The notes: a model not told the origin generated them from the sequence alone. A stretch of 64,000 nt of DNA from a virus (IMGVR_UViG_3300042458_000756:1-64000), one strand, 5' to 3'; shown: positions 17,455-63,535, numbered from the stretch's first letter. Numbers and translations: made by a program.

Positions 17455-19260
17455 TTAAAGACTTACTGACAGCGGCTCTACAGAAGTCAATGTAAATGAG
17501 GTAGCGTCATTCCCGTTTGTTGCCTCAAATATAGTCATGCTGGTGTCATCTATAACCTTTACAATATTCCCTGTATATAGCAGATAGTGCTGAGCTATCT
17601 TGGCCTGTGTGAGTGCCTCTTGATATATAGCCAAATTGTTATACATGCTTCCAATTCCTGATTTTGAATCTGTCTGGTTTTGATTAAATTTTAAGTTAGA
17701 TGCAGCCGAGGTAAAGGTTATAACAACATGGTGAGGAAGCCCTACTGACATAAAGTCAAAAACATTTGTCTCGGCTGTCCTATTTATGCCATTTACATAT
17801 ATTGAAGAAATTGCTGTTTTAGATATAACTCCAGAAGATGACCATTCATATATTTTTGAAGAAGCAGATACCAATACATTTTCTCCTAATTCTGGAGTGA
17901 ATATCATTTCAACTGATCTGACATCTGGTATATTGTTTAAGCTAAACCCATGCCCATTATGCATCTTTAATCCATTATTCTTATTGTAAGATAGAATTCT
18001 TCCATTGTTTCTTGGTAAGGCGTAATCAAAATTTGATGATACATAATACCCAGAGTTATCGCTATAAAAATTTTTTGAACTATAAAACAATATCTCTAGA
18101 TTTCTTAATATAGGTTGATACTTGCTTGTGTCATCTGATGACATGGTGACTCTTAACTCTAATATATCTGCTATCTGATTATCATTTTTATTATAGTATG
18201 GGAGGGGACTTCCATTTTTACATTCTTCCCATTCCGCCCCATCTATTCTTACCTCAACCTTAATTCCTTTTACATCATTAGACCAGTATATTTGGCTGGT
18301 AGATATGTCTAAATAATCAGGAACAATAAAATAATCTGTAAAAGAATGGCTTACTGCAACTGGGTCGGTGGTTTCTGGTAAATATAAATAAGATCCATCA
18401 TTAGACAAAGACATTCCGCTTGCAGATACATCTGCCCAGGATCTTGATAGCGGATAAGAAAATTTAAACTTTGGTTTAATTGCAGAGGAGTTCATGCTAA
18501 ACATATATCCACCGTCAGCATTAACGATTTGAGATGGATTAATTTCTTTTATTCCCTCAAGGTAGTGTTGCTTAATTTGATTTGGGGAAAGATTAAAGTT
18601 ATAAAATCCCACACAGTCAATAACAAATTTTCCATCTGCTGGTCCTGTTTTAAAATCAATAGATGAGTTGGAAAATCTATATCCATCTACTGAAGCTGTG
18701 TCAACAATGGATCCGTTTACATAAAGAGAGATTGATGCATTTTGAAATATACCAACTACGTAAAGGGACTCTGTTTTAGATGCAGTATATTGAGTTTCGC
18801 TTGATCCAACTTTAAAAACAATGTTTCCATTTTTGTAAAAAATACCTGCATTTATTGATGTGTCTGCAACTATTGTTATGTCGCTTTCAGTTGGAGGAAG
18901 AACGCACCAAGCTTCAATTGTAAAAGAGTCGTCGGCATTATGTTCGTTTGCAATTCCCTTAGAAATATAATGAATTGCTGTATATGGGAGGATCTGTGTG
19001 CCCCTGATCCCGCCAGAAATTAAAGGCATTAATTCTTTTGTTGATGCATTTACTGCGTATCCATTATTTATATTTCCAGAGTAGTCGTAAACTGGTAGCC
19101 CGCTTAATGCAGAGTATGTAAGACCGCTATCTTTTAATTGTTGATAAGTTGCAAATTGAGAAATTAATCCTGTGTAAGATGTTGCATCTCCTGATGTAAC
19201 TTCGTCTAATAAATAAAATGATGTTGGGTGGTCATTTAAGACTACGCTTTTGTATGACAT
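17455..19260 (-). CDS. LamG/concanavalin-like structural protein
   Basis: 601 residues. Residues ~100-235 form a LamG-type jelly-roll lectin pattern (SFTIEAWCVLPP, ISLYVNGSIVDTASVDG, CVGFYNFNLSPNQIKQHYLEG). A second, weaker copy lies at ~450-580 and ends in a similar YQEALTQAKIAQHYLLYTG segment. Such domains bind sugars on cell surfaces, so a receptor-binding or virion-decoration role is likely. It begins 7 nt after the preceding fibre gene stops. Confidence 0.75.
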   Translation of the reverse strand: MSYKSVVLNDHPTSFYLLDEVTSGDATSYTGLISQFATYQQLKDSGLTYSALSGLPVYDYSGNINNGYAVNASTKELMPLISGGIRGTQILPYTAIHYISKGIANEHNADDSFTIEAWCVLPPTESDITIVADTSINAGIFYKNGNIVFKVGSSETQYTASKTESLYVVGIFQNASISLYVNGSIVDTASVDGYRFSNSSIDFKTGPADGKFVIDCVGFYNFNLSPNQIKQHYLEGIKEINPSQIVNADGGYMFSMNSSAIKPKFKFSYPLSRSWADVSASGMSLSNDGSYLYLPETTDPVAVSHSFTDYFIVPDYLDISTSQIYWSNDVKGIKVEVRIDGAEWEECKNGSPLPYYNKNDNQIADILELRVTMSSDDTSKYQPILRNLEILFYSSKNFYSDNSGYYVSSNFDYALPRNNGRILSYNKNNGLKMHNGHGFSLNNIPDVRSVEMIFTPELGENVLVSASSKIYEWSSSGVISKTAISSIYVNGINRTAETNVFDFMSVGLPHHVVITFTSAASNLKFNQNQTDSKSGIGSMYNNLAIYQEALTQAKIAQHYLLYTGNIVKVIDDTSMTIFEATNGNDATSFTLTSVEPLSVSL

Positions 19261-19267
19261 CCCAAAC

Positions 19268-20437
19268 CTACTTTTCTTCTAGTGATTTTACTCTTGCTGT
19301 AAGTTCTTGTACCGCTTTAATTAATGGTGAAATAAACTCTTCATATCTTAATGCCTGTGTTCCTTCTAAGTCATTAACATCAGATATTAGCCAGCCGCCA
19401 AAATCGGCAACTCCAGAAGCATCTAATACTGATTTAACTTCTTGTGCAATTAGACCATAATGTGTTCTGTTTCCTTCAATTTTATTATACTTAACGGGAT
19501 GCAAATTATTTATAAAGTCTAGCCCGAGGTCAGAGGTTACTACATTTTCTTTTGTTCTTGCATCAGAAATTGTTGTGGCGTTATTATTTGAATATATATT
19601 TTTCCAGCCTCTTGTTACACGATCAGTACCAGCATTTAGAGGACCTATAAGGCCCAAGCTAAATGTATTATTTGTTAAGGGGAACCAGTTTGAATTTACT
19701 CCGACTGGAGATAAGTCTGTTGCTCCATAGTTTAATGAAATTCTTGTAGTAATTGGATCTATAACGGCATTGGTACCATTTGCTCCAGGTGCTCCAGGTG
19801 CTCCAGGTGCTCCGTCTGCGCCAGGTGCTCCGTCTGCTCCAGGTGCTCCGTCTGCGCCACGTGGAATTACAAAATCTAAAAGAACATTGCTGGAGGTTCC
19901 ACTATTTGTAACTACTGCGTTTGATCCTGGTAGGGATGTTGAAGTTGAGTTAACTGTTATGGTTGCGGCTGCATCTCCTTTAGGTCCAGGTGCTCCAACA
20001 GCACCGTTAGTTCCGTTAGTGCCAGCTGCGCCTGTTGCGCCTGTATCACCTTTTGGTAAAACTAAATTTAATACTTGGGATGGAGAAGTTCCTGTAATTG
20101 TTGCAGATGCACTTACTCCTGCAGTAACAGTTCCAATTGATAATACGTTAGAGGGTCCTGGGCCGCCAAGAATTCCGTCTTGGCCTCTTGGTATATTGAA
20201 TGTTAAAGATTGTGCAGGAGATGTTCCACTGATAGTTACGGTGGCACTTTGTCCAGGATTAAGTGTATTTGTTGCTGCTACGCTTAACACGTTAGCAGGG
20301 CCTGCTATTCCTTGTGGGCCAGGGTTTGCAGCAATAAATGCAGCAATGTCTGCGCCTAAAATACCAAGGTCCCTAGGTACGTCGGGTGAGTCCGAGTAAC
20401 TTGGGAAACGCCATCCATTAACACCTACTGTTGCCAT
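19268..20437 (-). CDS. Collagen-like tail fibre with S74 chaperone domain
   Basis: 389 residues. Residues ~140-225 contain Gly-X-Y runs (GAPGADGAPG type) broken by beta segments. From residue ~290 comes a peptidase_S74 intramolecular chaperone: SDARTKENV with the self-cleaving Ser-Asp, then HYGLIAQEVKSVLD, ending in a coiled coil. The chaperone folds the fibre as a trimer and then cuts itself off. It is the last gene of the oxygenase cassette and many of its prolines sit in X-Pro-Gly. A -10 box ends 6 nt before the ATG, so the transcript may be leaderless. Confidence 0.88.
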   Translation of the reverse strand: MATVGVNGWRFPSYSDSPDVPRDLGILGADIAAFIAANPGPQGIAGPANVLSVAATNTLNPGQSATVTISGTSPAQSLTFNIPRGQDGILGGPGPSNVLSIGTVTAGVSASATITGTSPSQVLNLVLPKGDTGATGAAGTNGTNGAVGAPGPKGDAAATITVNSTSTSLPGSNAVVTNSGTSSNVLLDFVIPRGADGAPGADGAPGADGAPGAPGAPGANGTNAVIDPITTRISLNYGATDLSPVGVNSNWFPLTNNTFSLGLIGPLNAGTDRVTRGWKNIYSNNNATTISDARTKENVVTSDLGLDFINNLHPVKYNKIEGNRTHYGLIAQEVKSVLDASGVADFGGWLISDVNDLEGTQALRYEEFISPLIKAVQELTARVKSLEEK

Positions 20438-20443
20438 TTTTTA

Positions 20444-20449
20444 ATTATA
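20444..20449 (-). promoter_or_regulatory. Extended -10 promoter for the collagen-like fibre
   Basis: TGGTATAAT on the minus strand, followed by exactly 6 nt and then the ATG at 20437. The predicted transcript starts at the A of the start codon. Confidence 0.5.
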
Positions 20450-20453
20450 CCAC

Positions 20454-21071
20454 CTATGAAATTATCTTACTTGTTTTAAACATAAACGCTGGGCACATGT
20501 ATTTGTTGCCAGATATTAGCGGGGTTGAGGCGTGAAAATATGGCTTAACTGAAGGAAATATAACCAGGCTACCAGCTTCTGGCTTGATCTTTATTTTTTG
20601 CTCTGGAAAAGAAAGTTCTCCTCCAGTGTAATTATCATTTAAATACAACACAATTGATGCAGTAAGCCTAGCCTCTTCATCGTCCTCTTCGCAATCGATG
20701 TGTGGACCCATCTGAGCTGGTGGGAAATACTTGCTTATTCTTACTTCGTTTGGCAAAAAGCCAAGATCTTTTCCCAATGATTTTGAATAATCTTCAACGC
20801 ACAAATTAATAGCATCTAGTATTGTAGATACGACCAAGGCATACCTTTTATTAATTTCATTATCTGTTTTTGATATGGTAAAGGATCCGACCTTATACTC
20901 GCCAAAAACATCATTTTCATTATTACTAGAAACCCATCTCATCCATTTTGTTAAATGAGGGTTGTCATAAGATATCTTGTCTAGTGTTTCTATTTCTTCA
21001 ACAAACTCACTTGGGTTTGGTATAACGTTTTTATAATAATAGATATTGTCATCTAAAATTTCTTTAATCAT
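20454..21071 (-). CDS. 2OG-Fe(II) oxygenase, prolyl-hydroxylase-like
   Basis: 205 residues. Iron ligands His124-x-Asp126 and distal His180 are present, with the core strand LYLNDNYTGGELSF typical of the P4H-type superfamily. The basic residue expected to hold 2-oxoglutarate is Lys190 rather than Arg. These enzymes hydroxylate using Fe(II), O2 and 2-oxoglutarate. It ends just upstream of the collagen-like fibre and overlaps the previous oxygenase by 4 nt. The substrate is not shown by sequence. Confidence 0.85.
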   Translation of the reverse strand: MIKEILDDNIYYYKNVIPNPSEFVEEIETLDKISYDNPHLTKWMRWVSSNNENDVFGEYKVGSFTISKTDNEINKRYALVVSTILDAINLCVEDYSKSLGKDLGFLPNEVRISKYFPPAQMGPHIDCEEDDEEARLTASIVLYLNDNYTGGELSFPEQKIKIKPEAGSLVIFPSVKPYFHASTPLISGNKYMCPAFMFKTSKIIS

Positions 21072-21766
21072 TCTCTACCTTCTGGCATTACTGGTCTTCC
21101 TTCTGGGGTTGCCCATTTTTTATAAATTTGTTCCTGCTCTGCTCTAACAGCCTTTAGCTCCATGTCCCAAGCTTCTCGTTGTTTGTCGGTATATACAATG
21201 CTTGCATCATCCCAAAACGATCCTATTGTGTATCTAATGCCACCCTTTACTGTTGTAACCATGTGCTCTCTTGTATGCCCGCCAGCAAAAAATGCGCCCA
21301 ATCCAATTTTTGGCTTGATGTCAATACTTCCATCCTTAAATTTTAAATGACCGCCTTCAAAATTATCATTCAGGTAAATAAACACTGCATACTTACTTCT
21401 TTCAAAAGCAGTTGGGTTTCCAACTTCATCTGAGTTGTCTGAGTGATAGTCTGCAAAAGCTCCTTCAAGCCACCTTTGTGCGTGATAGCTAACTTCTGAG
21501 ACTTCAAAGCCTAGCAATTCTTCGGTTTTAGATTTTATTTTTTCTTTAAACTGATTAAAGAAATCTTCTGGCAATCCAAAAAGTTTTAAATTTGGGTCGG
21601 ACGGCCAGTAGCCCATAGCCTGTGAGCCGTAGAAGGATATCTCATTCCATTTTAATATTTTGTGTTCTACCAAAAAATCAAAATAATTTATAATAGCAGA
21701 GCAAGTTTCTGGATCTATAAAATTCTCTACTATAAAAAATTCGTCTCTTATCTTTGGCATAGTCAT
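21068..21766 (-). CDS. 2OG-Fe(II) oxygenase, prolyl-hydroxylase-like
   Basis: 232 residues with His108-x-Asp110, distal His168 and Arg178 for 2-oxoglutarate; the core is IYLNDNFEGGHLKF. The closest pattern is the PKHD/P4H group. Stop and start overlap the downstream oxygenase (ATGA), and the start lies one base after the upstream stop, so it belongs to one operon. The C-terminus is charged and extended. Confidence 0.85.
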   Translation of the reverse strand: MTMPKIRDEFFIVENFIDPETCSAIINYFDFLVEHKILKWNEISFYGSQAMGYWPSDPNLKLFGLPEDFFNQFKEKIKSKTEELLGFEVSEVSYHAQRWLEGAFADYHSDNSDEVGNPTAFERSKYAVFIYLNDNFEGGHLKFKDGSIDIKPKIGLGAFFAGGHTREHMVTTVKGGIRYTIGSFWDDASIVYTDKQREAWDMELKAVRAEQEQIYKKWATPEGRPVMPEGRE

Positions 21767-21767
21767 A

Positions 21768-22550
21768 TTAGTACCCTAAATTCTTTCTATCTGAGTACTT
21801 CATGTTTGCTGGATTTTCTTTTTCAATTCTTTTTTGCTCCATCTTAGCCCAGGTATAAGCACCCCAGTGCTTTTGATTTGCAAGCCATTGTGGGTGCCCA
21901 TCATAATAGTACTGTATGAAGTTTCTAATAAAAAACTTGTTTCCATTTCTAATCGTTCTAACTCCATGAAAATATGGATCTTGTGATGGAAATACAAGTA
22001 TGTCGCCAGCCTTGGGCTTGTATGGATAGTATTGGTCGTTCATGTAAAACTCTATATCGCCACCTTCATAGTCATCGTTAATATATGTTGTGCAGGTAAG
22101 CAAAAATTTTGGACCAGGCATATCTCTTTCTGAAATGATAAAATCTGTATGGTACTGCATAGACATTTCATTGCCCATAGTATCTACATTTGCATCGTAT
22201 TTTGAAAAAGATGATGTCATTAATTTAGCCGATTCTGGCAAAACAATTCCGTATGTCTTTTTGTAATCTTCAATGGCAGTGTTGTAAGCCTCATAAACTC
22301 TGTCTGAAAGAAACTTTTCTTCATCATATCTTGGACCAAACTCTCTGGGCTCGTTCTCATTATGTTTTTGCTGTGAGTAGCTTCCAAAAATTGACCACTT
22401 GTCCCAAGTTCTTAAATAATATCTTCCTGCCGCATCGGCATCAGATTCCTTCATTATTCTGTACAATTCATCTGCATCTGGCAGTAGTCCCTGATAAATC
22501 CTTACATTTGGCAAAAGCTCAAAAGATGTGTATTCGTAATTAGTTGTCAT
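21768..22550 (-). CDS. 2OG-Fe(II) oxygenase
   Basis: 260 residues with His134-x-Asp136, distal His195, and Lys205 or Arg209 as the likely 2-oxoglutarate anchor; core TYINDDYEGGDIEF. An insert before the HxD (residues 110-130) distinguishes it from its neighbours. Its start overlaps the upstream oxygenase by 11 nt. Substrate unknown; neighbouring repeat proteins are candidates. Confidence 0.84.
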   Translation of the reverse strand: MTTNYEYTSFELLPNVRIYQGLLPDADELYRIMKESDADAAGRYYLRTWDKWSIFGSYSQQKHNENEPREFGPRYDEEKFLSDRVYEAYNTAIEDYKKTYGIVLPESAKLMTSSFSKYDANVDTMGNEMSMQYHTDFIISERDMPGPKFLLTCTTYINDDYEGGDIEFYMNDQYYPYKPKAGDILVFPSQDPYFHGVRTIRNGNKFFIRNFIQYYYDGHPQWLANQKHWGAYTWAKMEQKRIEKENPANMKYSDRKNLGY

Positions 22551-23214
22551 TGTCTATCCTACCTAGTCTGGTTATTGTCCAAAAGAATGGTGCGGTATAT
22601 CTTGTTCCGCTTGTTACTTTTGTTACCCCATGAATATAGTTCTTATCTCCTGGGAAAAAATATGCTGCTCTTGCTTTGGGCTTAAATTTAATATTTTGAA
22701 GTGGGAAGAATAGCTCTCCGCCTTCGTAATCATTATTTAAATAAAACACTGTTCCTATGTCGTACCATGGAAACTCATTTTCTGTTCCAGCGTCTGGGCC
22801 TTCGTGTAGCTCCTTGTCAGCATGAGGAAACTGCATCGCTCCAACTGGCCATCTAACAATGGCTGCTTCTGTCGGTGAAACTTCTACATCAAATTTTTCT
22901 CTAATAAATGGAGTCATTCTTTGGATAACTAGATTTAGAATTCTGACAACTTCTGGGTCTGCTTTCATTAGTGAGTCTTTAGTAGCAACTCTATCTTCCC
23001 ACACTCTGTGATCATAAATAATGTTTCCATTTTCATTCCACTGAGATTCAGTAACATCCCACACTGTGTTATTTCTTGCAAAGTTTAAAAGGTACTCTTG
23101 CTCTTCAAGAGTCACCATATCTTCTAGCTCTACAACATTGTCTGGTGAGGTTCCGAAATGCCCTGAAGGTGTTATTGACTGTCTTGCAAATCTAGCTCTT
23201 TTTGTATATTCCAT
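22540..23214 (-). CDS. 2OG-Fe(II) oxygenase
   Basis: 224 residues with a complete active site: His131-x-Asp133, His195 and Arg205; core FYLNNDYEGGELFF. The ~35-residue N-terminal extension is basic then acidic. It follows the DUF6065-like pair with a 7 nt gap. Confidence 0.85.
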   Translation of the reverse strand: MEYTKRARFARQSITPSGHFGTSPDNVVELEDMVTLEEQEYLLNFARNNTVWDVTESQWNENGNIIYDHRVWEDRVATKDSLMKADPEVVRILNLVIQRMTPFIREKFDVEVSPTEAAIVRWPVGAMQFPHADKELHEGPDAGTENEFPWYDIGTVFYLNNDYEGGELFFPLQNIKFKPKARAAYFFPGDKNYIHGVTKVTSGTRYTAPFFWTITRLGRIDNDN

Positions 23215-23221
23215 TTTTCAC

Positions 23222-23950
23222 CTATTCATATTTCTTTAAAGATCTAACGGTTAGCTTGTATGCCCCGCCGTCTTTGGTTCTAAATTTTTTTGCTTGCTGG
23301 TCATGTCTTTTTTCTATTTCTGACTTAGAATAGAATTTTTTTTCCATCTTCCAGTCTTCTCTTTTATATGGAATTAATTGCATATAAGGTGTTCCCGCTG
23401 GTATGGTGCCCTCAAAATCCTTTTTGAGAAAAAATGGCATTAATCCAGGAGTGTCCATCTTATCATTATCTATTATAGCAGAGGTGGTAGTAAATGGTAA
23501 GTCAAATCTATTTATTGGGTGAACATACATTACGCTGTATCCTTCTGGGACGGATGGTGCCCAGTTAGGATACCAATGAAAATGAAAATCGTCGTGTCCA
23601 GTTGGTACTGGGAATTCTTTCATGGGTTGCCTTGAGCCAACAAAATCCTCATATCCAGATTCTGTTTTTACGGTTGTGATTCCGTTAGCGTTTTTTTTAA
23701 ATACTATATTGCATGGAGTTACATACATATAGCCACTAATAAATATGTCCAAAAGTCCTGGGCAAGATCTGAAAGTTCTAACTGGGCCTCCTTCTGTATT
23801 TAAGTACGGCTCGTTTGTCTCAGGATTAATCTCAAATTTTTGTGCATCTTTAAACCAATTTGGCATTAATGATTTTGTGGTATGAGGAGCATAGGATTCA
23901 GAAATAATATTATATAACCTATTGGAATGAAAAGTTATTTTATTTGTCAT
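23222..23950 (-). CDS. DUF6065-like / cyanophage-type conserved protein
   Basis: 242 residues. It carries segments such as SCPGLLDIFISGYMYVTPC, MYVHPINRFDLPFTTTSA and the ending YMQLIPYKREDWK, which I associate with a conserved phage family of unknown function found with oxygenase genes. Conserved His/Asp residues (HFHWYPNW) could bind metal in a cupin-like fold, but this is not established. It overlaps the upstream gene by 11 nt. Confidence 0.6.
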   Translation of the reverse strand: MTNKITFHSNRLYNIISESYAPHTTKSLMPNWFKDAQKFEINPETNEPYLNTEGGPVRTFRSCPGLLDIFISGYMYVTPCNIVFKKNANGITTVKTESGYEDFVGSRQPMKEFPVPTGHDDFHFHWYPNWAPSVPEGYSVMYVHPINRFDLPFTTTSAIIDNDKMDTPGLMPFFLKKDFEGTIPAGTPYMQLIPYKREDWKMEKKFYSKSEIEKRHDQQAKKFRTKDGGAYKLTVRSLKKYE

Positions 23951-24644
23951 TTACTCTCAACCTTAAAGTTTTTGTTTCGTGTTCACCAATAGTATTGCCT
24001 TTGTGATCAGTTGCATTTCTATAAAACCCAGCCCATTTGCCAGACATATTTATTTTATCTATTGTCATTCCATAAGCTCTTCCATCATATGGAGACCCTA
24101 CATAACCTTTCCCATCGTATAAGTCAACCTCGTAATTATTGATTTCTTTTAATGAGACTGGCAAAAATACGGCAACAGGTGTGCCTGCTTTTACTGTTAT
24201 TATTTTACCTGGCGATGTCACCCTCCAAACTACGGGAACCTCGGCAGAGAAAAAAGATGTGGTTAGCAATGTTGTAAATGCCTGTGCTCCATCTATAAAA
24301 AAGTTTGGAGCAGGCATAGTTAATATAGTTGTGTCTTTATCGGTTTTAAAGGTTAAGCCAGTAATAAAGCTTATGGTTGCATTTGCCCTGTTTGTGTGTA
24401 CATACTTTTCACCAGAAAGTATTTTTACATGAATGGACTGGCTATCTGAGATGCCGTCCCAAATAAAAGAAATATCTTCTGGGAAGGAGATTCCCCATCC
24501 TAGAGTGTTAGATAAACTAACTGGAAAACAGTTGTATGCATGTCTGTCAGCTGTCTGGTCCATCCATTCCCTGTTTACTTTTACCTGCTCTATTTTGGCG
24601 GGGCTGTCTCCTGTTTTAAAAACATCAATTTTACGCATATCCAT
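23940..24644 (-). CDS. DUF6065-like protein
   Basis: 234 residues. The N-terminal region (REWMDQTADRHAYNCFPVSLSNTLGWGI) matches my memory of DUF6065, a family of unknown function. Its C-terminus has a different composition from the 242-residue neighbour, but both share a beta-rich layout and may be distant relatives. It overlaps the upstream oxygenase by 14 nt, so it is co-translated with it. Confidence 0.6.
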   Translation of the reverse strand: MDMRKIDVFKTGDSPAKIEQVKVNREWMDQTADRHAYNCFPVSLSNTLGWGISFPEDISFIWDGISDSQSIHVKILSGEKYVHTNRANATISFITGLTFKTDKDTTILTMPAPNFFIDGAQAFTTLLTTSFFSAEVPVVWRVTSPGKIITVKAGTPVAVFLPVSLKEINNYEVDLYDGKGYVGSPYDGRAYGMTIDKINMSGKWAGFYRNATDHKGNTIGEHETKTLRLRVNDK

Positions 24645-25329
24645 CGGTATACTTCTTTTCTATTTCTCTGTAGGCTGGTGTGTGAGGAGCCTCTAGGTAA
24701 TCTAGCATAGTTACAATAGAGTATTTTGTTCCACTTGTTACTGGAAGCGATGCGTGTGAAAATAAATAAGATGAAGGGAATAGATAAAGATCCCCAGCCT
24801 TAGGCTTTATTTTTAAATTAAATTTATCAAAAAATAGCTCCCCGCCCTCGTAATCATCGTTAATATATCCAACAGAAGATAGCACACAAATATAAGAGTA
24901 TCCATGATCAGAGTGTACTTGAAAATGCTGTCCTGGACCGTATTTAACAAAGTTAAAAGACTCCCAATAATTTAGTGGTGCAAGGTTAAATTTTTGTCTA
25001 TAGTCTTCTACTGGGCCCAGCTGTGCATCCTTAGCGTCCTCCCATATCGATTCTAGTTTAATTTGATCTTCGCTTTTGCCATCATTATCTTGCTTGTTTT
25101 TCTTAATCTTAAAATCAAATGCGTCTCTATACTTTAAGTTGCTTGAAGCGTATCCAGTTGTGGCCTGCTTCCATTTATAGGTTGCATGGGGCGAATCTGA
25201 ATACCCAACACCTTCGGCATCTGGGTCTCTAGACAAACAATCTTCAAGTCTATTTATAAAATCCATGTCTTTTGGAAATATGTTTCTATAGACGAGCACT
25301 CCTGGTGCTAAAACTTCTGGCTGGTTCAT
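24631..25329 (-). CDS. 2OG-Fe(II) oxygenase (paralogue pair member A)
   Basis: 232 residues with His139-x-Asp141, distal His182 and Lys192; core GYINDDYEGGELFF. It aligns along its length with the adjacent upstream oxygenase (shared FDFKI, NYWE.FNFVKYGPG, SDLYLFPS-type and KYSIVTM segments), showing a tandem duplication. The DHGYSYICVL segment after the HxD is shared by both. Confidence 0.86.
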   Translation of the reverse strand: MNQPEVLAPGVLVYRNIFPKDMDFINRLEDCLSRDPDAEGVGYSDSPHATYKWKQATTGYASSNLKYRDAFDFKIKKNKQDNDGKSEDQIKLESIWEDAKDAQLGPVEDYRQKFNLAPLNYWESFNFVKYGPGQHFQVHSDHGYSYICVLSSVGYINDDYEGGELFFDKFNLKIKPKAGDLYLFPSSYLFSHASLPVTSGTKYSIVTMLDYLEAPHTPAYREIEKKYTDGYA

Positions 25330-25330
25330 A

Positions 25331-26029
25331 TCAATCTCCCTTAATTATTTTATCTTGTTTTCTTTTTTTAATAAGTTGTGAAAAGTCTTCACCGTGATGA
25401 TCGTCATTGTAGTCTGTCATAGTTACAATAGAGTATTTTATTCCCTCTGATATTGGCATGGCGGCATGAGAAAATAAATATGTCGATGGGAATATGTAAA
25501 GGTCACCAGATTTTGGTTTAACCTGAATTCCTATTTTTGGAAAAACAAGTTCTCCTCCAACATAGTCTTCATTAATATATCCTACCATGGAGACTGTAGC
25601 AACATAAGAAAATCCATGATCTGCATGTTCTTTAAAGTAATTTCCTGGTCCGTATTTAACAAAGTTAAATTGTTCCCAGTAATTCATTTGTATATTGTAC
25701 ATATTGCAGTAATCAATTAAAGCTGGGTTTTTAGCATCGTATGTATCTTGCCATATTGAATTTAATACATCGTATTCGTTACTTAAACCAAAATTATTTT
25801 TTCTTATTTTAAAATCAAAACAATCTCTATAGTCTGAGTCTTTTTTATCAGTGCCAACTTTGGCTTTTTGCCAACTATGAAGACTAGACAAAGAAAGCTC
25901 TTCCTCTAGTCTTTGGGAAAGATTTAATTCTTTTTTAATTACATTTCTGTAAACCCAAAGTCCAGGGAAAAGCTGTTCTTTTGAAGACCACGTCTCCGAC
26001 AAACTGTTTTGCATTAAACTACCTATCAT
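25331..26029 (-). CDS. 2OG-Fe(II) oxygenase (paralogue pair member B)
   Basis: 232 residues with His135-x-Asp137, distal His188 and Lys198; core GYINEDYVGGELVF. It is the first gene of the oxygenase cassette, directly downstream of the PPG-repeat/Hint protein. A second in-frame ATG at 26014 could be the true start (AGGTAG upstream). It was duplicated to give the next gene. Confidence 0.85.
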   Translation of the reverse strand: MIGSLMQNSLSETWSSKEQLFPGLWVYRNVIKKELNLSQRLEEELSLSSLHSWQKAKVGTDKKDSDYRDCFDFKIRKNNFGLSNEYDVLNSIWQDTYDAKNPALIDYCNMYNIQMNYWEQFNFVKYGPGNYFKEHADHGFSYVATVSMVGYINEDYVGGELVFPKIGIQVKPKSGDLYIFPSTYLFSHAAMPISEGIKYSIVTMTDYNDDHHGEDFSQLIKKRKQDKIIKGD

Positions 26030-26039
26030 TTATTCATTA

Positions 26040-26063
26040 TGACATTTATAAACATAAATGTCA
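26040..26063. promoter_or_regulatory. Perfect inverted repeat before the oxygenase cassette
   Basis: Two 10-bp arms, TGACATTTAT and ATAAATGTCA, are separated by 4 nt. There is no U-run on either strand, so it is not a typical terminator. It lies between the Hint protein and the first oxygenase and could be an operator or an mRNA-processing hairpin. Confidence 0.6.
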
Positions 26064-26079
26064 ATATAGAACAATAACA

Positions 26080-27516
26080 TTACATCAAGAGCCACCACTT
26101 ATAGTTGTGCATCAAGATATTTTCTGTAACGAACCAGTCTTGAGGCTCCGTGTTTAGTCTGTAAACTGTTGAGACTCCGTCGACAAGTGTAATAGATGTA
26201 ATTAATAGATCAGAAATAAGTCCATTTTCGTCTAGTTTAATTAAATGATCTCCTACTACTATGTCTGAGGACAGTTCGACGCTATAGACACCGTCTCTTT
26301 TTATAAACACATGTTGATGTAAAGAAATCTTTAAAGATTCGTCTCCATTAAAATACATGATTTGTGGAACAATTTTGCCTATCTTTGAAACTACTGTTGC
26401 TTCGACAAAACCGTTAGATGAAAGTGAATTAGAAGACCAAGTTTCATAATCAAGCTCAGATTCTTCTTGAGTTCCTACTAATGGCAACTCATTTAAATCT
26501 GCGGTGACTATTATATCTCCAACTTCAATATCTTTTATTTTTTTAAATCCATCTTTAGTTTTAATTAGAGTGTTTTCTTCAATACATCCGCCGCCGCCAC
26601 CAAAAGATGGAGGTGAGAAGAACCCTGGAGGTGAGAAGAACCCAGGAGGTGAGAAGAACCCTGGAGGACCAAAGAACCCTGGAGGTGCGAAGAACCCTGG
26701 AGGTGAGAAGAACCCTGGAGGTGAGAAGAACCCTGGGGGACCAAAGAACCCTGGGGGTGCGAAGAACCCTGGAGGTGCGAAGAACCCTGGAGGTGCGAAG
26801 AACCCTGGAGGTGCGAAGAACCCTGGAGGTGCGAAGAACCCTGGAGGTGCGAAGAACCCTGGAGGTGCGAAGAACCCTGGAGGTGAGAAGAACCCTGGGG
26901 GTGAGAAGAATGACGGTGGTGAGAAGAAGGTTGTAACTGAAGCGGAGGCACCTGATGTGACACCATTTCCGTTAGCATTATGTGCATAAACTGTATAAGT
27001 TTGTGCTGTTCCTTGCTCTTGGGCTACTGATACTGATGTAGCTGCTGTGTTTCCTTGCTTTCCATCGGATGATGCCCAGTAATACAAATCAATTGCTGAT
27101 CCACCATTTGCTGGGGCTGGCCAAGATACTACGTCTGTTCCTGCTGTTGATGATGATGCTGAAACAAGACCAACTTGGTCTGGGACGGTAGTAGGTGTTG
27201 TAGCATTTGAAGTAGTGGTAGGACCGTTGCCAACTGCATTAGATGGAGTTATTGTAAATGTGTATGATACTCCACCAGCGAGGCCTGTAAAGGACTTTGT
27301 AGTAGAAGTTGATGTTTGTGTTGTTGTTGCTGGACTTGACACTATTGTATATAGTGTTGCTGCTGGTGAATCGGATGGAAGCGTCCAAGCTAAGTTCGCT
27401 GAACCGTTATTGAACGCCCCTCCGTTAACACCAGTGGCAGTAAATCCAGTAACGGCCTTTGGCTCCAGGAAGTTGTCCTGTGCTGAAGACTTAATACCGA
27501 TTTTCTTATTTGCCAT
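26080..27516 (-). CDS. FN3 / PPG-repeat fibre with C-terminal Hint domain
   Basis: 478 residues in four parts. Residues ~20-200 are two fibronectin type III repeats. Residues ~203-305 are about 18 units of a six-residue repeat, mostly GFFAPP or GFFSPP, so Pro-Pro-Gly recurs throughout. A GGGGG linker follows. Residues 311-478 are a Hint (hedgehog/intein) domain: Cys311 starting block A (CIEENTLIKTKDG), a SLHQHVFI block and a C-terminal His470-Asn471 (WFVTENILMHN). A Hint domain can make a thioester at Cys311 and release or transfer the repeat part. The residue after Asn471 is Tyr and only 7 residues follow, so protein splicing is unlikely. It stands next to the 2OG oxygenases, for which PPG is a classic P4H target. 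Confidence 0.85.
   Translation of the reverse strand: MANKKIGIKSSAQDNFLEPKAVTGFTATGVNGGAFNNGSANLAWTLPSDSPAATLYTIVSSPATTTQTSTSTTKSFTGLAGGVSYTFTITPSNAVGNGPTTTSNATTPTTVPDQVGLVSASSSTAGTDVVSWPAPANGGSAIDLYYWASSDGKQGNTAATSVSVAQEQGTAQTYTVYAHNANGNGVTSGASASVTTFFSPPSFFSPPGFFSPPGFFAPPGFFAPPGFFAPPGFFAPPGFFAPPGFFAPPGFFAPPGFFGPPGFFSPPGFFSPPGFFAPPGFFGPPGFFSPPGFFSPPGFFSPPSFGGGGGCIEENTLIKTKDGFKKIKDIEVGDIIVTADLNELPLVGTQEESELDYETWSSNSLSSNGFVEATVVSKIGKIVPQIMYFNGDESLKISLHQHVFIKRDGVYSVELSSDIVVGDHLIKLDENGLISDLLITSITLVDGVSTVYRLNTEPQDWFVTENILMHNYKWWLLM
26599..26930 (-). repeat. 18-nt tandem repeat coding for PPG units
   Basis: About 18 near-identical 18-nt units inside the Hint-protein gene. They vary only at the codon for Ala/Ser/Gly and at a Pro/Gly third base, so unit number could change easily by slippage or recombination. 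Confidence 0.9.
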
Positions 27517-34580: not shown

Positions 34581-36794
34581 TTACCCAACCTGAATATAAA
34601 TATCTCCAGCAACCATTCCAGAAGCTGGTAGGACGCCAGTATTATTATAGAATGTTTTTGCTCCAACGGGAATTGTTGTTATTGATCCCAAAGAAACTAG
34701 TTGTCCATTAATTCCAACATAATTATTTGCAAGCATAACATTTGTAACTGTCGCTGTATCAGCTAAAGTAACTGCTGTTCCAGCAATTTTGCTTTTATCT
34801 ATTGATGCTGATGCGCTTATATCTGTGTTTACTATTGTACCGTCTGCAATTTTTGCAGAAGTTATAGAGCTGTCTGCTATTGTTGTAGACAGTCCAGTTA
34901 CTGTAGCACCAGAAAAATCTACTGTTCCAGTAAATACTGGTGATGCTTTAGTTGCATAGCTTGTTAAGTTTAATGTTGCCCATGAAGCAGATGTGCCATC
35001 TGTAGTTAAATATTTACCAGTGTTGTTAATTTGTGGTGGTAAGGCTGTAATTCCTGTTACCGTAGCACCAGAAAAATCTACTGTTCCAGTAAATACTGGT
35101 GATGCTTTTGTAGCGTATGTTGTTGATGCAGTTGATATTGCCAACTTGGCATCTAATGCTGATTGGGTGGCTGTGGAAATTGGCTTTAGTGCATCTGTGG
35201 TATTGTCTACGTTTCCGAGTCCCACCATTGATTTAGTAACACCAGAAACTGTTCCAGTAAATGTTGGAGAAGCAAGTGGCGCATATGTTGATGCGGCAGT
35301 TGCTGAGGATAGTTTAGTTCCAACTAATGTTGTTAATGCTGTTCCTGCTGTTTCATCTGTAGCAATATAATCTGCAATTTCTTTAAGGGTATCGAATGTG
35401 GCTGGTGCACCATTTACAACTGTAGCTATCTGGGAAGCAATGTCTGAAGTTCTTGCAATTGTTGATGGTATTACTGTGTCAAGAATTTTTCCACTAGTAA
35501 CTCCAATTTTTGCATATCCTCCTGCTAAATCTGCATCCGCTTCCATTACATATCCGTCTAGTCTATTGTCTAGATTTGATATTGTTACAAAGTTATTTCC
35601 TACATATGTCATTATTTCATCTGTAGCGGCGTTAATGTTTACATATACGTCTGTAAATCTGGTATTGTTTGCAGCTGAAGCTCTTTCATTTGTAAAGTAA
35701 AGATTTGTAGAGCCTTCTGCTACTGCATCAGTATTTCCAGAAAAAGTTGAACCACCGCCAGATCCTGTTGCGCCCGTAGCGCCAGTGGCTCCTTGTGGAA
35801 TTGTAAAGTTTAGTATTGCTGCTGATGTTGTGCCTGAGTTTGTTACAGAAACAGATGAACCAGGTGTTCCTGTTGTAACAGAGCCAACTGTTATTGTTGC
35901 TGCGGTTCCAGGCGCTCCTGTAGGACCAGTATCTCCAGGTAAACCTTGTGGACCTGTTGCGCCCGTAGGACCAGTATCTCCAGGTAAACCTTGTGGACCT
36001 GTTGCGCCAGTGGCTCCAGTGGCTCCAGGTAAACCTTGTGGACCTGTTGCGCCAGTGGCTCCAGGTAAACCTTGTGGACCTGTTGCGCCAGTGGCTCCAG
36101 GTAAACCTTGTGGACCTGTTGCGCCAGTGGCTCCAGGTAAACCTTGTGGACCTGTTGCGCCCGTAGGACCAGTTGATCCACCACCAGAAGACAAACCAGA
36201 AACTGCTGTTGATATTGCAGAGTTTCTATTTATTACTTCTGTTGCAATTGCGGAGTTTGTGTATGTAGCTGACAACGAAACAGCGTCTGCTTTGGCTGCA
36301 ATTACTTTTGCAGATGCATCGTCAGATGCTGCAGCTATTGCTTGTGTTTTTGCTGTTGCAATTGCTGCTGTTGTAGAAGATGCTTGTGTTGCAATAGCGG
36401 CGTTTCTATTTGTAGTTTCAGTTGCAATTGCAGAAGATATCGCTTCAGATACTGCATCAATTGCTCTTTGATTTGTAAAATACTTATTTGTTGAACCTTC
36501 TGTGATGGAGTTTGTAGTTAAAGCTGCTATTGCTGCTGCGAAATCTCCTCCTACTGATATTGAATCTGGTAGCTGAGATGAAGGAATTTTTCCAGAAGAG
36601 TTTAGTGTGGCTAGGCCATTGGCTTCTCCAGCTTTAAATGCATAGGAAGTTGTTGCATTCCATCTTGACCCATTACCAATTTTAAACTTTAGGCTGTCTG
36701 TTTCGATGCCTAATTCACCTGGTAATAATATAGGGTTGTTGGACACCCAGTTTGCTGCTGTGTCTCTTCTGAGTTGTATTCTTAATGATGCCAT
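34581..36794 (-). CDS. Collagen-like tail fibre with Mtd-like N-domain
   Basis: 737 residues from the ATG at 36794 (AGGAGG 8 nt upstream); an earlier in-frame ATG would lie inside the previous gene. N-terminal [25 protein letters not shown] is an Mtd-type attachment domain. Residues ~210-305 contain about 29 Gly-X-Y triplets, repeatedly [12 protein letters not shown], so GLPG gives many X-Pro-Gly sites. Repeated [15 protein letters not shown] beta units follow toward the C-terminus. Confidence 0.83.
35905..36165 (-). repeat. 36-nt tandem repeat coding for collagen triplets
   Basis: Four or more near-identical 36-nt units within the collagen-like fibre gene, plus two variant units at the low-coordinate end. 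Confidence 0.85.
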
Positions 36795-36795
36795 T

Positions 36796-37254
36796 TTATG
36801 AACCTCCTGCATCAACAATTATACCATCGTTGTCTGCAGAACTTCCTCCTTCTAGAATTTCGTCTTGTACTTCTATAACACTGCCTTCTGGGTTTCCGCC
36901 ATCAAGCAATGTTTGGTTTTCAAATGTTCCGCCTTGATTTGATATTGAAGGACTTTGTCCATCGTATCCGACTACAAGCGGCAATACTAGATTGGGAGAA
37001 TCGGCAGTATTTGTTTCCTTAAATGTAATCTTATTCTGAACATCAATTGTATGAACATTTCCATCAAATGTATGGGTGTGCATGTAAAATGGTGTTGGAT
37101 CTGTACTGGGAGGGGTTAGTTCTACCCAGACAATACCATTATATATTCTTAAATTCTTACTGACTACGTTAAAATAAATATCTCCGACTGTGGCTATATC
37201 AGGGTTCTCCATAGAAGTAAGAAGATTAAGTGCAACCTTCATTTGTCTGGACAT
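36796..37254 (-). CDS. Small structural protein next to collagen fibre
   Basis: 152 residues. The segment [23 protein letters not shown] matches a fibre N-tag (also GQIYFDTGTHVLYFYNGTEW in the next gene). The C-terminus is Gly/Asp-rich and disordered. It probably sits at the fibre base. Confidence 0.68.
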
Positions 37255-43133: not shown

Positions 43134-43292
43134 ATGGCAAGGGACCACTTTTCGCAAGCATCAAGGAATCCTAGGTATAACAGCAGTTTTTATAAAAACC
43201 AGGAGTCTAAAGAAGCCACGTCGGAAATCAAAATTGAATTATTTTTTTTAAAAATATTTTCTAAACTAAAAAGAATGGCTGGCAAAAAATAA
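43134..43292 (+). CDS. Small basic protein
   Basis: 52 residues with a Lys/Phe-rich C-terminus (FFLKIFSKLKRMAGKK), possibly membrane-active or nucleic-acid-binding. Its stop overlaps the next gene's start (TAATG), so it is probably translated with the oxygenase-CDGSH gene. Unrecognised. Confidence 0.55.
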   Translation: MARDHFSQASRNPRYNSSFYKNQESKEATSEIKIELFFLKIFSKLKRMAGKK

Positions 43293-44131
43293 TGTTTACA
43301 GATAATCCAAACGTTGAGCAAATAGCAGACCAGGTCTGGGTATATAGAAACTTTATAACAGAAGAAGAAAACGAAACTATACTGCGTCTTATGAAAGAGC
43401 ATGAAGAGTCATACAAAGACTCTAAAGATGCGTTTATTTTTGAAGATCAGTATATAGACTGGTACAAGGACAAAACTGGACCACTGATGCCAGAGCTTAA
43501 GCCAATATGGGACAGAATATCTATGTTGATATATCCAGAACATTACATCCACCCACAGCTTTTTGTAAATGTTATGCGTCCTGGAGATGACGGAATGTTT
43601 GTACACGCAGATAGCCCTGGCATGAATATGGAACACGATTTAACACAGCTAGACCGATGGTCAACATGCTGCAGACTTAGCCATGGAATTGTTGCTTATT
43701 TGGGAAATTACGAAGGCGGAGAAATATTTTACCCAAACATAGAAAAAGACGGCACAGTTAAGGATCGACCAGGAGACCCAGATGATTGCCTTCAGGTAAA
43801 TGTTAGACCTAGAGATATTGCAATACATGGAGCCACTCACCCTTGGGAACACGGAGTAAGGCAAATAACTAGTGGGATTAGATTTGCTTATTCAAACTTC
43901 TGTATGGAAAAAGAACACGCACCAGGAACTTATGAATTGTTTAACCCAGACAAGCACCCTTTGATGTCGGACCCAGAAGAGATTAAACTTTGGAACAATA
44001 CTGTTTATCCTGAAACAACATTTTGCAAAAAGAAATGTATTTGTGGTCAATCAGCAGATTTTCCTTATTGCGATAACACCCACAAGATTATTAATAAGAA
44101 GAAACAAGAAGAAGGCAATTCAGACATTTAG
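43292..44131 (+). CDS. 2OG-Fe(II) oxygenase fused to CDGSH iron-sulfur domain
   Basis: 279 residues. Residues ~1-215 are an oxygenase with His105-x-Asp107, distal His187 and Arg197, and a core YLGNYEGGEIFY. Residues 245-264 match the CDGSH signature: Cys249-x-Cys251, Ser254, Pro258, Cys260-Asp261 and His264, the three-Cys-one-His set that holds a [2Fe-2S] cluster; the usual Gly is Asn262. The cluster could pass electrons to the iron centre or keep it reduced. It is the only plus-strand member of the ten oxygenases here. Confidence 0.88.
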   Translation: MFTDNPNVEQIADQVWVYRNFITEEENETILRLMKEHEESYKDSKDAFIFEDQYIDWYKDKTGPLMPELKPIWDRISMLIYPEHYIHPQLFVNVMRPGDDGMFVHADSPGMNMEHDLTQLDRWSTCCRLSHGIVAYLGNYEGGEIFYPNIEKDGTVKDRPGDPDDCLQVNVRPRDIAIHGATHPWEHGVRQITSGIRFAYSNFCMEKEHAPGTYELFNPDKHPLMSDPEEIKLWNNTVYPETTFCKKKCICGQSADFPYCDNTHKIINKKKQEEGNSDI

Positions 44132-45080: not shown

Positions 45081-45986
45081 CTAGTCAACTGCTTTTACTA
45101 CATATACAGTTGTATTGTTTGCATCGTGACTTTCCTGAGCTTTTTGAAGAGAATCATATACTCTGCACTGCCAGCCAAATTTTGCAAATCCTTCTTTTTC
45201 TTTTTCTTTAAGCAATGCCTCAAACTCTTCTTCTGGCATAGAATTTTTTGTATTAACAAAATCTTCTTTAAACGATGCCGTTAAGAATTGACGAACATAA
45301 AACTTGTTTCCTACTACTGGTGTAACTGCATGATATAAGTCTGTTCTAAATAGCAGACCGTCTCCAGCCTCCATCTTATATCTAATTGGTGGATCAATCA
45401 TACGACACTGTTGTTCTTTTCCAGTACAATCTATATATGTCGATAAATCTGCATCTTCAGTATTTATAAGAAGTATTTCTCCACCTTCATAATCATCGTT
45501 TGTATAAATGTTGAAATTGAAGATGTGAGGAGTTCCTCCAAACCAAGGTCTGCGATCTTGATGATATTCCATTGAAAGCTGAAGAGACTTGTCTGTATTT
45601 TCTGATTCTAGAATAACTACATCTGCAGAGCAATATGAAGGATGCTCTCTAGCTTCTTGCATTGATGTTGGAATATTTGGATCTTCATTTATTAGTTTAA
45701 AGTAATCTTCGTTTAAATAGTTTTCTTTGTAGATCTTCATAGCGTCCCAGAAAATATCTAAAAATTCTCTAAGATGTGCTCCACCTTCATTTTTACATAC
45801 TTCATATGATGGATCTTGATATGGGTATGCTTTTGAATATTGACCCCATGGTCTCCAGTCTTGCCAATCGCCAAACCACTGGTCATTATTTGTCTTTGAT
45901 CGTATAATAAAATCTTGAGTCGCTGCTGGGTCCTTTAAAGTATTTTTAAAAAGGATTACATCTTTTGTTAATAGTTTGTGTTCCAT
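45081..45986 (-). CDS. 2OG-Fe(II) oxygenase, extended
   Basis: 301 residues, the longest single-domain member. His142-x-Asp144 and distal His219 are present, with Lys228 or Arg232 likely to hold 2-oxoglutarate; core IYTNDDYEGGEILL. An insert at ~170-205 contains two Cys. GGGGG precedes the start. It follows another oxygenase directly, in one operon. Confidence 0.84.
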   Translation of the reverse strand: MEHKLLTKDVILFKNTLKDPAATQDFIIRSKTNNDQWFGDWQDWRPWGQYSKAYPYQDPSYEVCKNEGGAHLREFLDIFWDAMKIYKENYLNEDYFKLINEDPNIPTSMQEAREHPSYCSADVVILESENTDKSLQLSMEYHQDRRPWFGGTPHIFNFNIYTNDDYEGGEILLINTEDADLSTYIDCTGKEQQCRMIDPPIRYKMEAGDGLLFRTDLYHAVTPVVGNKFYVRQFLTASFKEDFVNTKNSMPEEEFEALLKEKEKEGFAKFGWQCRVYDSLQKAQESHDANNTTVYVVKAVD

Positions 45987-46637
45987 TTATCCCCCTAATA
46001 TGTCTCTTGCCCAAAAAGGCCATTCTTCTGCCCAGCGTTTTCCAGTTTCTGAAGATAGCCAGTCCTTACATCCTCTAATTGTATCAGTTCTCCATTTTAA
46101 ATATTCTTCTTGGTCCCAGTTTGTTCCTGGTTTAGTTTTATCGTATACTACAAATGTAACAGTTCTCTTGTTATCTCCCGCTGCCGATTCTGCACCGTGC
46201 AATACAGCAGAAGATTGAACTACTAGGTCGCCTTTGTGTGGTTGCATCCATGTATTTGTTTCTGGATAGTAAAGTCGTCCTCCATCCATTTCTGCTAGGT
46301 ATATAACTCCGCCAAAAGATTTTTTATGTGGATGAGGGTCGTATGCCTGGTCGTCGCTGTGAATTCCAAATGGTTTACCTGGGACTGAGTACCAGTGTAA
46401 AAAAGTATTTACATCGTATTGATCTTTATCAAAGATTTCTTTAACTCTTTCTACAAGCTGGCGTAGCATGGGAACTTGCAATAAGAGTATTCCTTTATTA
46501 CTAGGGTTTTCGGTTATCTCACCGATTTCTTGTGCCATCCTAGATTGTTCAAAAGCTAAATCACATAGCTCTTCAGAGATAAATCCTCTGTATACATATG
46601 CAGAGTCATTTATTTTTTCCCAACCAGTAAAATCCAT
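45987..46637 (-). CDS. 2OG-Fe(II) oxygenase
   Basis: 216 residues from the ATG at 46637; a GTG two codons upstream is possible. His-x-Asp (IHSDD), distal His (VLHGAES) and Arg (NKRTVTF) are complete. The strand core is IYLAEMDGGRLYY rather than NDxYEGGE. A TGGTATAAT promoter lies about 25 nt before the AAAGG ribosome site, and the next oxygenase starts right after its stop. Confidence 0.84.
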   Translation of the reverse strand: MDFTGWEKINDSAYVYRGFISEELCDLAFEQSRMAQEIGEITENPSNKGILLLQVPMLRQLVERVKEIFDKDQYDVNTFLHWYSVPGKPFGIHSDDQAYDPHPHKKSFGGVIYLAEMDGGRLYYPETNTWMQPHKGDLVVQSSAVLHGAESAAGDNKRTVTFVVYDKTKPGTNWDQEEYLKWRTDTIRGCKDWLSSETGKRWAEEWPFWARDILGG

Positions 46638-46643
46638 ATACAC

Positions 46644-62951: not shown

Positions 62952-63458
62952 TTATTCCTTTACGTCAAAGAAGAGGATAATGTTTGCTCGTTCCCCAACC
63001 AAAATCTCATTAACTGAGTGCGGGTAGTTTTCATCACCCTTAAAATAAACTAATGTGCCTGGGTTTGGCTTATAAGGAGTTGGAATATTATTATCATAAA
63101 ATAATATCTCTCCGCCCTCATAGTCACCTGTAAGGTAAAGCAACGCAGAGTAGCCAATTACCCCATAGCCATCTACACCACCGTATGCATCGGTATGGTA
63201 TCCAAGATCTTCGCCTTCACACAATACCTGATACAAAACTCTATTGATTGATATTCTGTCTTCTGGGAATCCAAATTCTTTTTGAATATTCTCAACAATT
63301 GATTTAACTCTAACATAAACTTCATGGCTAGGATCAAATGGGTACAGCTGCTTACTAAGTCTTCCCATTGGGTTACGCTCAACTGTTGACCTTAAGAACA
63401 TGTGAATTTCTTTGGCCGATTCTTCTGAAATAAAATTATCTACTACCGTTGGTTGCAT
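62952..63458 (-). CDS. 2OG-Fe(II) oxygenase, compact
   Basis: 168 residues from the ATG at 63458 (AGAGG upstream); the open frame extends 13 codons further. His88-x-Asp90, distal His147 and Arg157 are all present; core LYLTGDYEGGEILF. The smallest of the ten oxygenases and separate from the fibre cassette, so its target may differ. Confidence 0.86.
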   Translation of the reverse strand: MQPTVVDNFISEESAKEIHMFLRSTVERNPMGRLSKQLYPFDPSHEVYVRVKSIVENIQKEFGFPEDRISINRVLYQVLCEGEDLGYHTDAYGGVDGYGVIGYSALLYLTGDYEGGEILFYDNNIPTPYKPNPGTLVYFKGDENYPHSVNEILVGERANIILFFDVKE

Positions 63459-63535
63459 TTGAATTCCTCTTTTCTGTGTGAAGTACAAGTATATCATTTA
63501 ATATATTAAAGCAGTTAACTAAGCTACATCTAATA

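Follow-up and report, generated by a model that had tools for sequence, protein, structure and literature searches.

Many aquatic phages carry a protein made of phenylalanine- and proline-rich repeats directly beside a block of prolyl-hydroxylase-like enzymes, and the two come and go together; these phages therefore probably hydroxylate one of their own tail proteins, which would give the puzzlingly numerous oxygenases of phages a substrate. The analysis started from a window of 64,000 nucleotides, taken from an IMG/VR virus record of 71,703 bases, in which a tight minus-strand operon encodes an FN3-(FFxPPG)18-Hint protein, six 2OG-Fe(II) oxygenases (OX1 to OX6), two DUF6065-type proteins and a collagen/S74 fibre. 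Across IMG/VR contigs, the oxygenases follow the proline-dyad (PP) aromatic repeat and not collagen.

The oxygenase operon and its repeat protein

The first-pass annotation had described six 2OG-Fe(II) oxygenases and two DUF6065-like genes lying between a protein with about 18 Pro-Pro-Gly units and a Gly-X-Y fibre, with a third, GLPG-rich collagen-like fibre upstream, and this observation is confirmed, since all of the genes are present, in the order described (Table 1). The gaps within the operon run from −14 to +50 bp, as in a translationally coupled operon. The repeat protein, of 478 residues, contains 18 FFxPP units, of which 16 are PPG and 2 are PPS; this is far above chance, since residue shuffles give a mean of 0.5 PPG and a maximum of 4. 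However, some corrections are needed. The FFxPPG repeat is a hexapeptide with Gly at every sixth residue rather than every third, so it is not a Gly-X-Y collagen, and the protein also carries an FN3 domain and a Hint/intein-like C-terminus, neither of which had been reported. In the latter region, Cys310 and a C-terminal HN are present, although the Pfam scores are below cut-off and some relatives lose the HN. Additionally, four more oxygenase-like ORFs lie outside the cassette, of which only the last passes the Pfam cut-off.

Table 1. Features of the operon and related genes elsewhere in the window
Position	Strand	Feature	Observations
26080..27516	-	PP-repeat protein: FN3 domain, 18 FFxPP units, degenerate Hint/intein-like C-terminus	Proposed substrate
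26608..26910	-	18-bp tandem array encoding the FF[A/S/G]PPG units	16.8 copies
25331..26029	-	OX1, 2OG-Fe(II) oxygenase	PF13640, 4.1e-11
24631..25329	-	OX2, 2OG-Fe(II) oxygenase	Closest to prolyl 4-hydroxylases
23940..24644	-	DUF6065 protein; predicted dUTPase-like beta fold	DUF6065, 1.5e-30; also hits phrog_7084 weakly
23222..23950	-	Second DUF6065-type protein	Matches only phrog_7084
22540..23214	-	OX3, 2OG-Fe(II) oxygenase	
21768..22550	-	OX4, 2OG-Fe(II) oxygenase	
21068..21766	-	OX5, 2OG-Fe(II) oxygenase	
20454..21071	-	OX6, 2OG-Fe(II) oxygenase	Tet_JBP match below cut-off
19268..20437	-	Collagen-like fibre with Peptidase_S74 chaperone	Collagen 9.6e-7, 28.9 vs 27.2 bits; neighbour, not a conserved partner
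17455..19260	-	LamG/concanavalin-like tail protein	End of the operon; neighbour
34581..36818		GLPG collagen-like fibre	Collagen 4.2e-14
43292..44131		Oxygenase-like ORF	Outside the cassette
45081..45986		Oxygenase-like ORF	Outside the cassette
45987..46643		Oxygenase-like ORF	Outside the cassette
62952..63497		Oxygenase-like ORF	Outside the cassette; passes the Pfam cut-off

All six oxygenases of the cassette match PF13640 above its curated cut-off (31–50 bits versus 27). The HxD...H facial triad and a basic 2OG anchor ten residues on are kept in all six groups over 44–84 sequences; in OX1, the catalytic residues are invariant in 84 sequences apart from 2 gaps at the anchor. The anchor is Lys, as in collagen P4H, in OX1 (82 of 84, with 2 gaps) and OX2 (55 of 55) and in the majority of OX4 and OX6, whereas OX3 and OX5 have Arg. 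Purifying selection is strong, with dN of 0.02–0.19 against dS of 0.8–1.7 for OX1–OX6 versus L011 (labels of this form denote individual viral loci in the comparison). OX2 is nearest to the B. anthracis P4H by sequence, with profile hits to that enzyme (3e-8) and to LH3, and its AlphaFold2 model (pLDDT 91.5) best matches prolyl hydroxylases in the PDB, including PBCV-1 vCPH and an algal P4H with bound peptide. OX6 and OX3 have weaker hits to P4H/PKHD enzymes; OX5 and OX3 have weak, non-decisive hits to prolyl 3-hydroxylase 1, those of OX5 not being significant; and OX4 has no significant hit. The match of OX6 to the TET/JBP DNA hydroxylases reaches only 13.8 bits against a cut-off of 34.9.

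Linkage of the oxygenases to proline-dyad repeats

A search with the repeat protein returned 28 viral loci, most of them with the same order of genes. Some relatives have FFPPYFP-type repeats without PPG and keep the oxygenases, while one (L035) has (FGA)n repeats without proline and without adjacent oxygenases, which suggested a natural experiment. Four independent scans of viral contigs were therefore made, for FFxPPG repeats, for the FN3 scaffold whatever its repeat, for (FGA)n repeats and for Gly-X-Pro collagens. Among genes with at least 2 kb of sequence downstream, 48 of 53 distinct FFxPPG genes have an oxygenase on the same strand within 2 kb (mean 3.06 within 5 kb), compared with 2 of 46 (FGA)n genes and 2 of 61 Gly-X-Pro collagens. 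Within the scaffold-matched set, 74 of 75 PP repeats but 2 of 42 non-PP repeats have the cassette, as do 1 of 14 proline-rich repeats without PP. PPG itself is dispensable, since PP repeats with at most one PPG have the cassette in 17 of 17 cases. The local oxygenase profile was built partly from PP loci. With the curated PF13640 model, PP contigs have 3–14 matches in 40 of 40 records, whereas FGA contigs have matches in 20 of 38, mostly one or two. In the reverse direction, OX1/2-type genes found by their own profile have an aromatic PP-repeat gene within 5.5 kb upstream in 59 of the 61 loci where this could be judged, eleven more loci having too little upstream sequence.

INDEPENDENCE. The P value of 1e-27 for the scaffold-matched comparison overstates the evidence, because relatives share ancestry and the large counts are pseudo-replicated. 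On a tree of the FN3 part, the PP state changes only three times, at least twice on well-supported branches, and one PP clade with the cassette (L116, L185, L069, L065 and L076) is nested among non-PP lineages. The effective sample is thus limited to these three repeat switches plus a second scaffold, a short protein of 120–150 residues whose N-terminus has no significant similarity to the FN3 scaffold and which carries FFxPP repeats. It lies beside OX3-, OX1/2- or OX4-type genes in 8 of 11 distinct cases, with DUF6065 where enough sequence is present; a PASTA domain suspected by eye in this scaffold had no Pfam support. The exceptions to the linkage are L200 and L186 (non-PP with oxygenases), L125 (PP with the oxygenase 3.2 kb away), and L060, L079 and L143, where no close oxygenase was seen (FFxPP repeats in L060 and L079). 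FGA phages also carry oxygenase clusters far from any PP gene. This rules out the notion that all phage oxygenase clusters are PP-linked, so the link is a property of this oxygenase type and phage oxygenases have other roles too.

The repeat protein has no annotated phage relatives in the phage collection searched. Among cellular genomes, the exact FFxPPG pattern had 0 hits in a collection of 84,980 species, and a relaxed pattern gave 11 hits, none near an oxygenase.

Interpretation and competing readings

The first-pass annotation had proposed that the phage hydroxylates X-Pro-Gly in its own fibres, to stabilise triple helices or to prepare glycosylation, and this interpretation is only partly supported. 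The prolyl-hydroxylase-like character of the oxygenases and a strong, specific tie to the adjacent PP-repeat protein, in both directions and against controls, are supported, whereas collagen as the target, X-Pro-Gly as the needed motif, and glycosylation are not; no glycosyltransferase is found in the cassette or among the other window proteins scanned with Pfam. We consider it more likely than not that the operon is a self-modification cassette for a phage tail protein, in which the FN3-(FFxPPG)n-Hint protein is the substrate, the prolyl-4-hydroxylase-like OX1/OX2 hydroxylate prolines of its Pro-Pro dyads, and OX3–OX6, which are diverged relatives, add further hydroxylations, for example at the other proline of the dyad or at another carbon. 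In vertebrate collagen, Pro-Pro-Gly becomes 3Hyp-4Hyp-Gly by sequential P4H and P3H, and a similar split between Lys-anchor and Arg-anchor enzymes is possible by analogy alone. In this view, the DUF6065 proteins would serve the repeat protein or its assembly independently of proline modification, and the hydroxylated repeat would be a more polar, stiffer polyproline-like stalk or adhesive on the virion, with possible effects on the solubility of an FF-rich chain. The gene order, the catalytic residues, the purifying selection, the predicted fold and the two-way linkage of PP repeats to oxygenases are established by the analysis. By contrast, enzymatic activity, the identity of the repeat as substrate, hydroxyproline as the product, the division of labour among six enzymes and the physical effect are inferred, as is presence in the virion, which rests only on the place of the gene among tail genes.

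The alternatives are less well supported. That the oxygenases act on collagen-like fibres is very unlikely, even though a fibre with seven Gly-X-Pro-Gly sites lies just downstream in this window, another collagen fibre lies elsewhere in it, and the enzymes resemble collagen prolyl hydroxylases. Viral Gly-X-Pro collagens largely lack nearby oxygenases, as noted above, and a collagen-like protein follows OX6 in only about half of the cassettes, usually with 0–2 Gly-X-Pro-Gly sites; collagen stabilisation is therefore not the conserved function, and FFxPPG itself cannot form a collagen triple helix. It also appears unlikely that the enzymes modify the aromatic repeat at Phe, Ala/Ser or other positions rather than proline, or install several different modifications as in a peptide-tailoring pathway. 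This reading draws on the presence of six enzymes with intact catalytic residues beside one six-residue repeat, on the repeat being always aromatic, and on the divergence of the Arg-anchored OX3 and OX5 from OX1/2; however, FGA, FGFTP and FYN repeats are equally aromatic but lack the cassette, linkage follows the PP dyad, and the nearest solved relatives of OX1/2, OX3, OX5 and OX6 are mostly prolyl hydroxylases.

Similarly doubtful is the possibility that the oxygenases are auxiliary metabolic genes acting on 2-oxoglutarate pools, nucleic acid or small molecules, which merely share a mobile late-gene module with the repeat gene. Published proposals for cyanophage oxygenases invoke nitrogen/2OG control or DNA repair (PMC3037559), phage oxygenase clusters occur away from PP genes, and OX6 has the weak, sub-cut-off Tet_JBP match; nevertheless, this does not explain why presence follows the repeat sequence within one scaffold family, why the reverse link is so consistent, or why an unrelated scaffold shows the same link. 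A more far-reaching version of the favoured reading is tentative, though possible: tailed phages may run a dedicated multi-enzyme pathway that hyper-hydroxylates an aromatic, proline-rich repeat in a virion tail protein, with different oxygenases modifying different atoms of each FFxPP unit. This would be a non-collagen, hydroxyproline-containing fibre or adhesive in bacterial viruses, analogous to plant extensins or mussel adhesive proteins.

Relation to known systems and accessory genes

2OG-Fe(II) oxygenases are among the most common unexplained genes of aquatic phages and are usually filed as auxiliary metabolic genes, and whether any virus hydroxylates its own virion proteins has stayed open since the PBCV-1 enzyme was described. 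Here, one well-defined oxygenase type has a repeated, recognisable candidate substrate next door; if the reading is true, it would be a new class of phage protein modification and a source of compact prolyl hydroxylases with simple peptide substrates. No report of this linkage was found in the literature searched, which did not extend to subscription papers. The use of prolyl 4-hydroxylase by aquatic viruses has been called cryptic (PMC9301287), and a 2026 survey finds prolyl-hydroxylase-like proteins widespread in phages without naming a substrate (PMC12774648).

The PBCV-1 viral prolyl 4-hydroxylase (vCPH, PDB 5c5t; Eriksson 1999, as cited in PMC7019647 and PMC9301287) shares the 2OG-Fe(II) prolyl hydroxylase fold, which the OX2 model matches at E 1.3e-10, and acts sequence-specifically on proline-containing peptides (PMC7019647). 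However, it is a single enzyme of an algal virus with no known role and no assigned virion substrate, and hydroxyproline was sought and not found in PBCV-1 virions (PMC7019647), which counts against virion hydroxylation, whereas six enzymes lie here beside one candidate substrate in tailed phages. The bacterial P4Hs of B. anthracis (3itq/5hv0) and P. putida (4iw3, in complex with EF-Tu) are the closest solved relatives by sequence and fold and have the same HxD-H facial triad, but they are cellular enzymes with EF-Tu as the reported target (PDB titles 4iw3 and 5v7y) and are not known from a multi-oxygenase operon with a repeat protein. Cyanophage 2OG-Fe(II) oxygenases (Sullivan 2010, PMC3037559; Phold 2026, PMC12774648) belong to the same superfamily, occur several per phage and resemble human prolyl hydroxylase EGLN3; their substrates are unassigned, and the two cyanophage loci examined (S-RS29 and S-H9-1) are not beside a PP repeat. 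Phage collagen-like tail proteins (PMC3368898) are likewise repetitive fibre proteins, but they form Gly-X-Y triple helices without prolyl hydroxylation, whereas the linked repeat here is a non-collagen FFxPP hexapeptide; the same study states that bacteria and viruses lack the needed prolyl hydroxylases.

A part for DUF6065 in proline modification is unlikely, since it follows the FN3 scaffold with or without PP (72/75 versus 36/42) and also occurs in haloarchaeal viruses near DNA polymerase without an oxygenase; it is therefore tied to the repeat protein or locus rather than to proline modification. Its model (pLDDT 95.7) resembles the dUTPase fold. Finally, the capsid similarity of 55–60% to Streptomyces phages suggests, by inference, an actinobacterial host.

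Repeat-bearing tail proteins

The C-terminal 170 aa of the FN3 repeat protein comprise a putative Hint/intein-like domain, which lies directly after the repeats and contains Cys310 and a C-terminal HN, while relatives show degenerate versions without Cys or HN; the domain may once have cleaved or ligated the fibre tip. In other phages, the same FN3 scaffold carries (FGA)n, (FGFTP)n, (PVPV)n or (FYN)n repeats (viral loci L035 and L229-L317), forming a family of aromatic low-complexity tail repeats of unknown structure. Additionally, a second, larger tail protein (about 850-920 aa) with FFxPPG units is present in viral contigs L012, L014, L016 and L164, which also carry an extra set of OX1-, OX2- and DUF6065-type genes.

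Oxygenase-like ORFs and neighbouring genes

Including the oxygenase-like ORFs outside the cassette, this phage may carry ten in all. One of these displays the HxD...H motif without a PF13640 hit, together with a C-terminal CDGSH-type iron-sulfur finger that scores below the cut-off. DUF6065, for which a dUTPase-like fold is predicted, also occurs in haloarchaeal viruses, such as Halorubrum tailed phage 7 (L445), near DNA polymerase and thymidylate synthase.

Coordinates of the additional features
Position	Strand	Feature
26080-27516		FN3 repeat protein
43292-44131	+	Oxygenase-like ORF with CDGSH-type finger
45081-46643 and 62952-63497	-	Three further oxygenase-like ORFs
L035 9992-11521		FN3 scaffold, other repeats
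23940-24644		DUF6065
39612-41546	-	Ribonucleotide reductase-like gene (B12-type insertion domain), just upstream of the tail-fibre block
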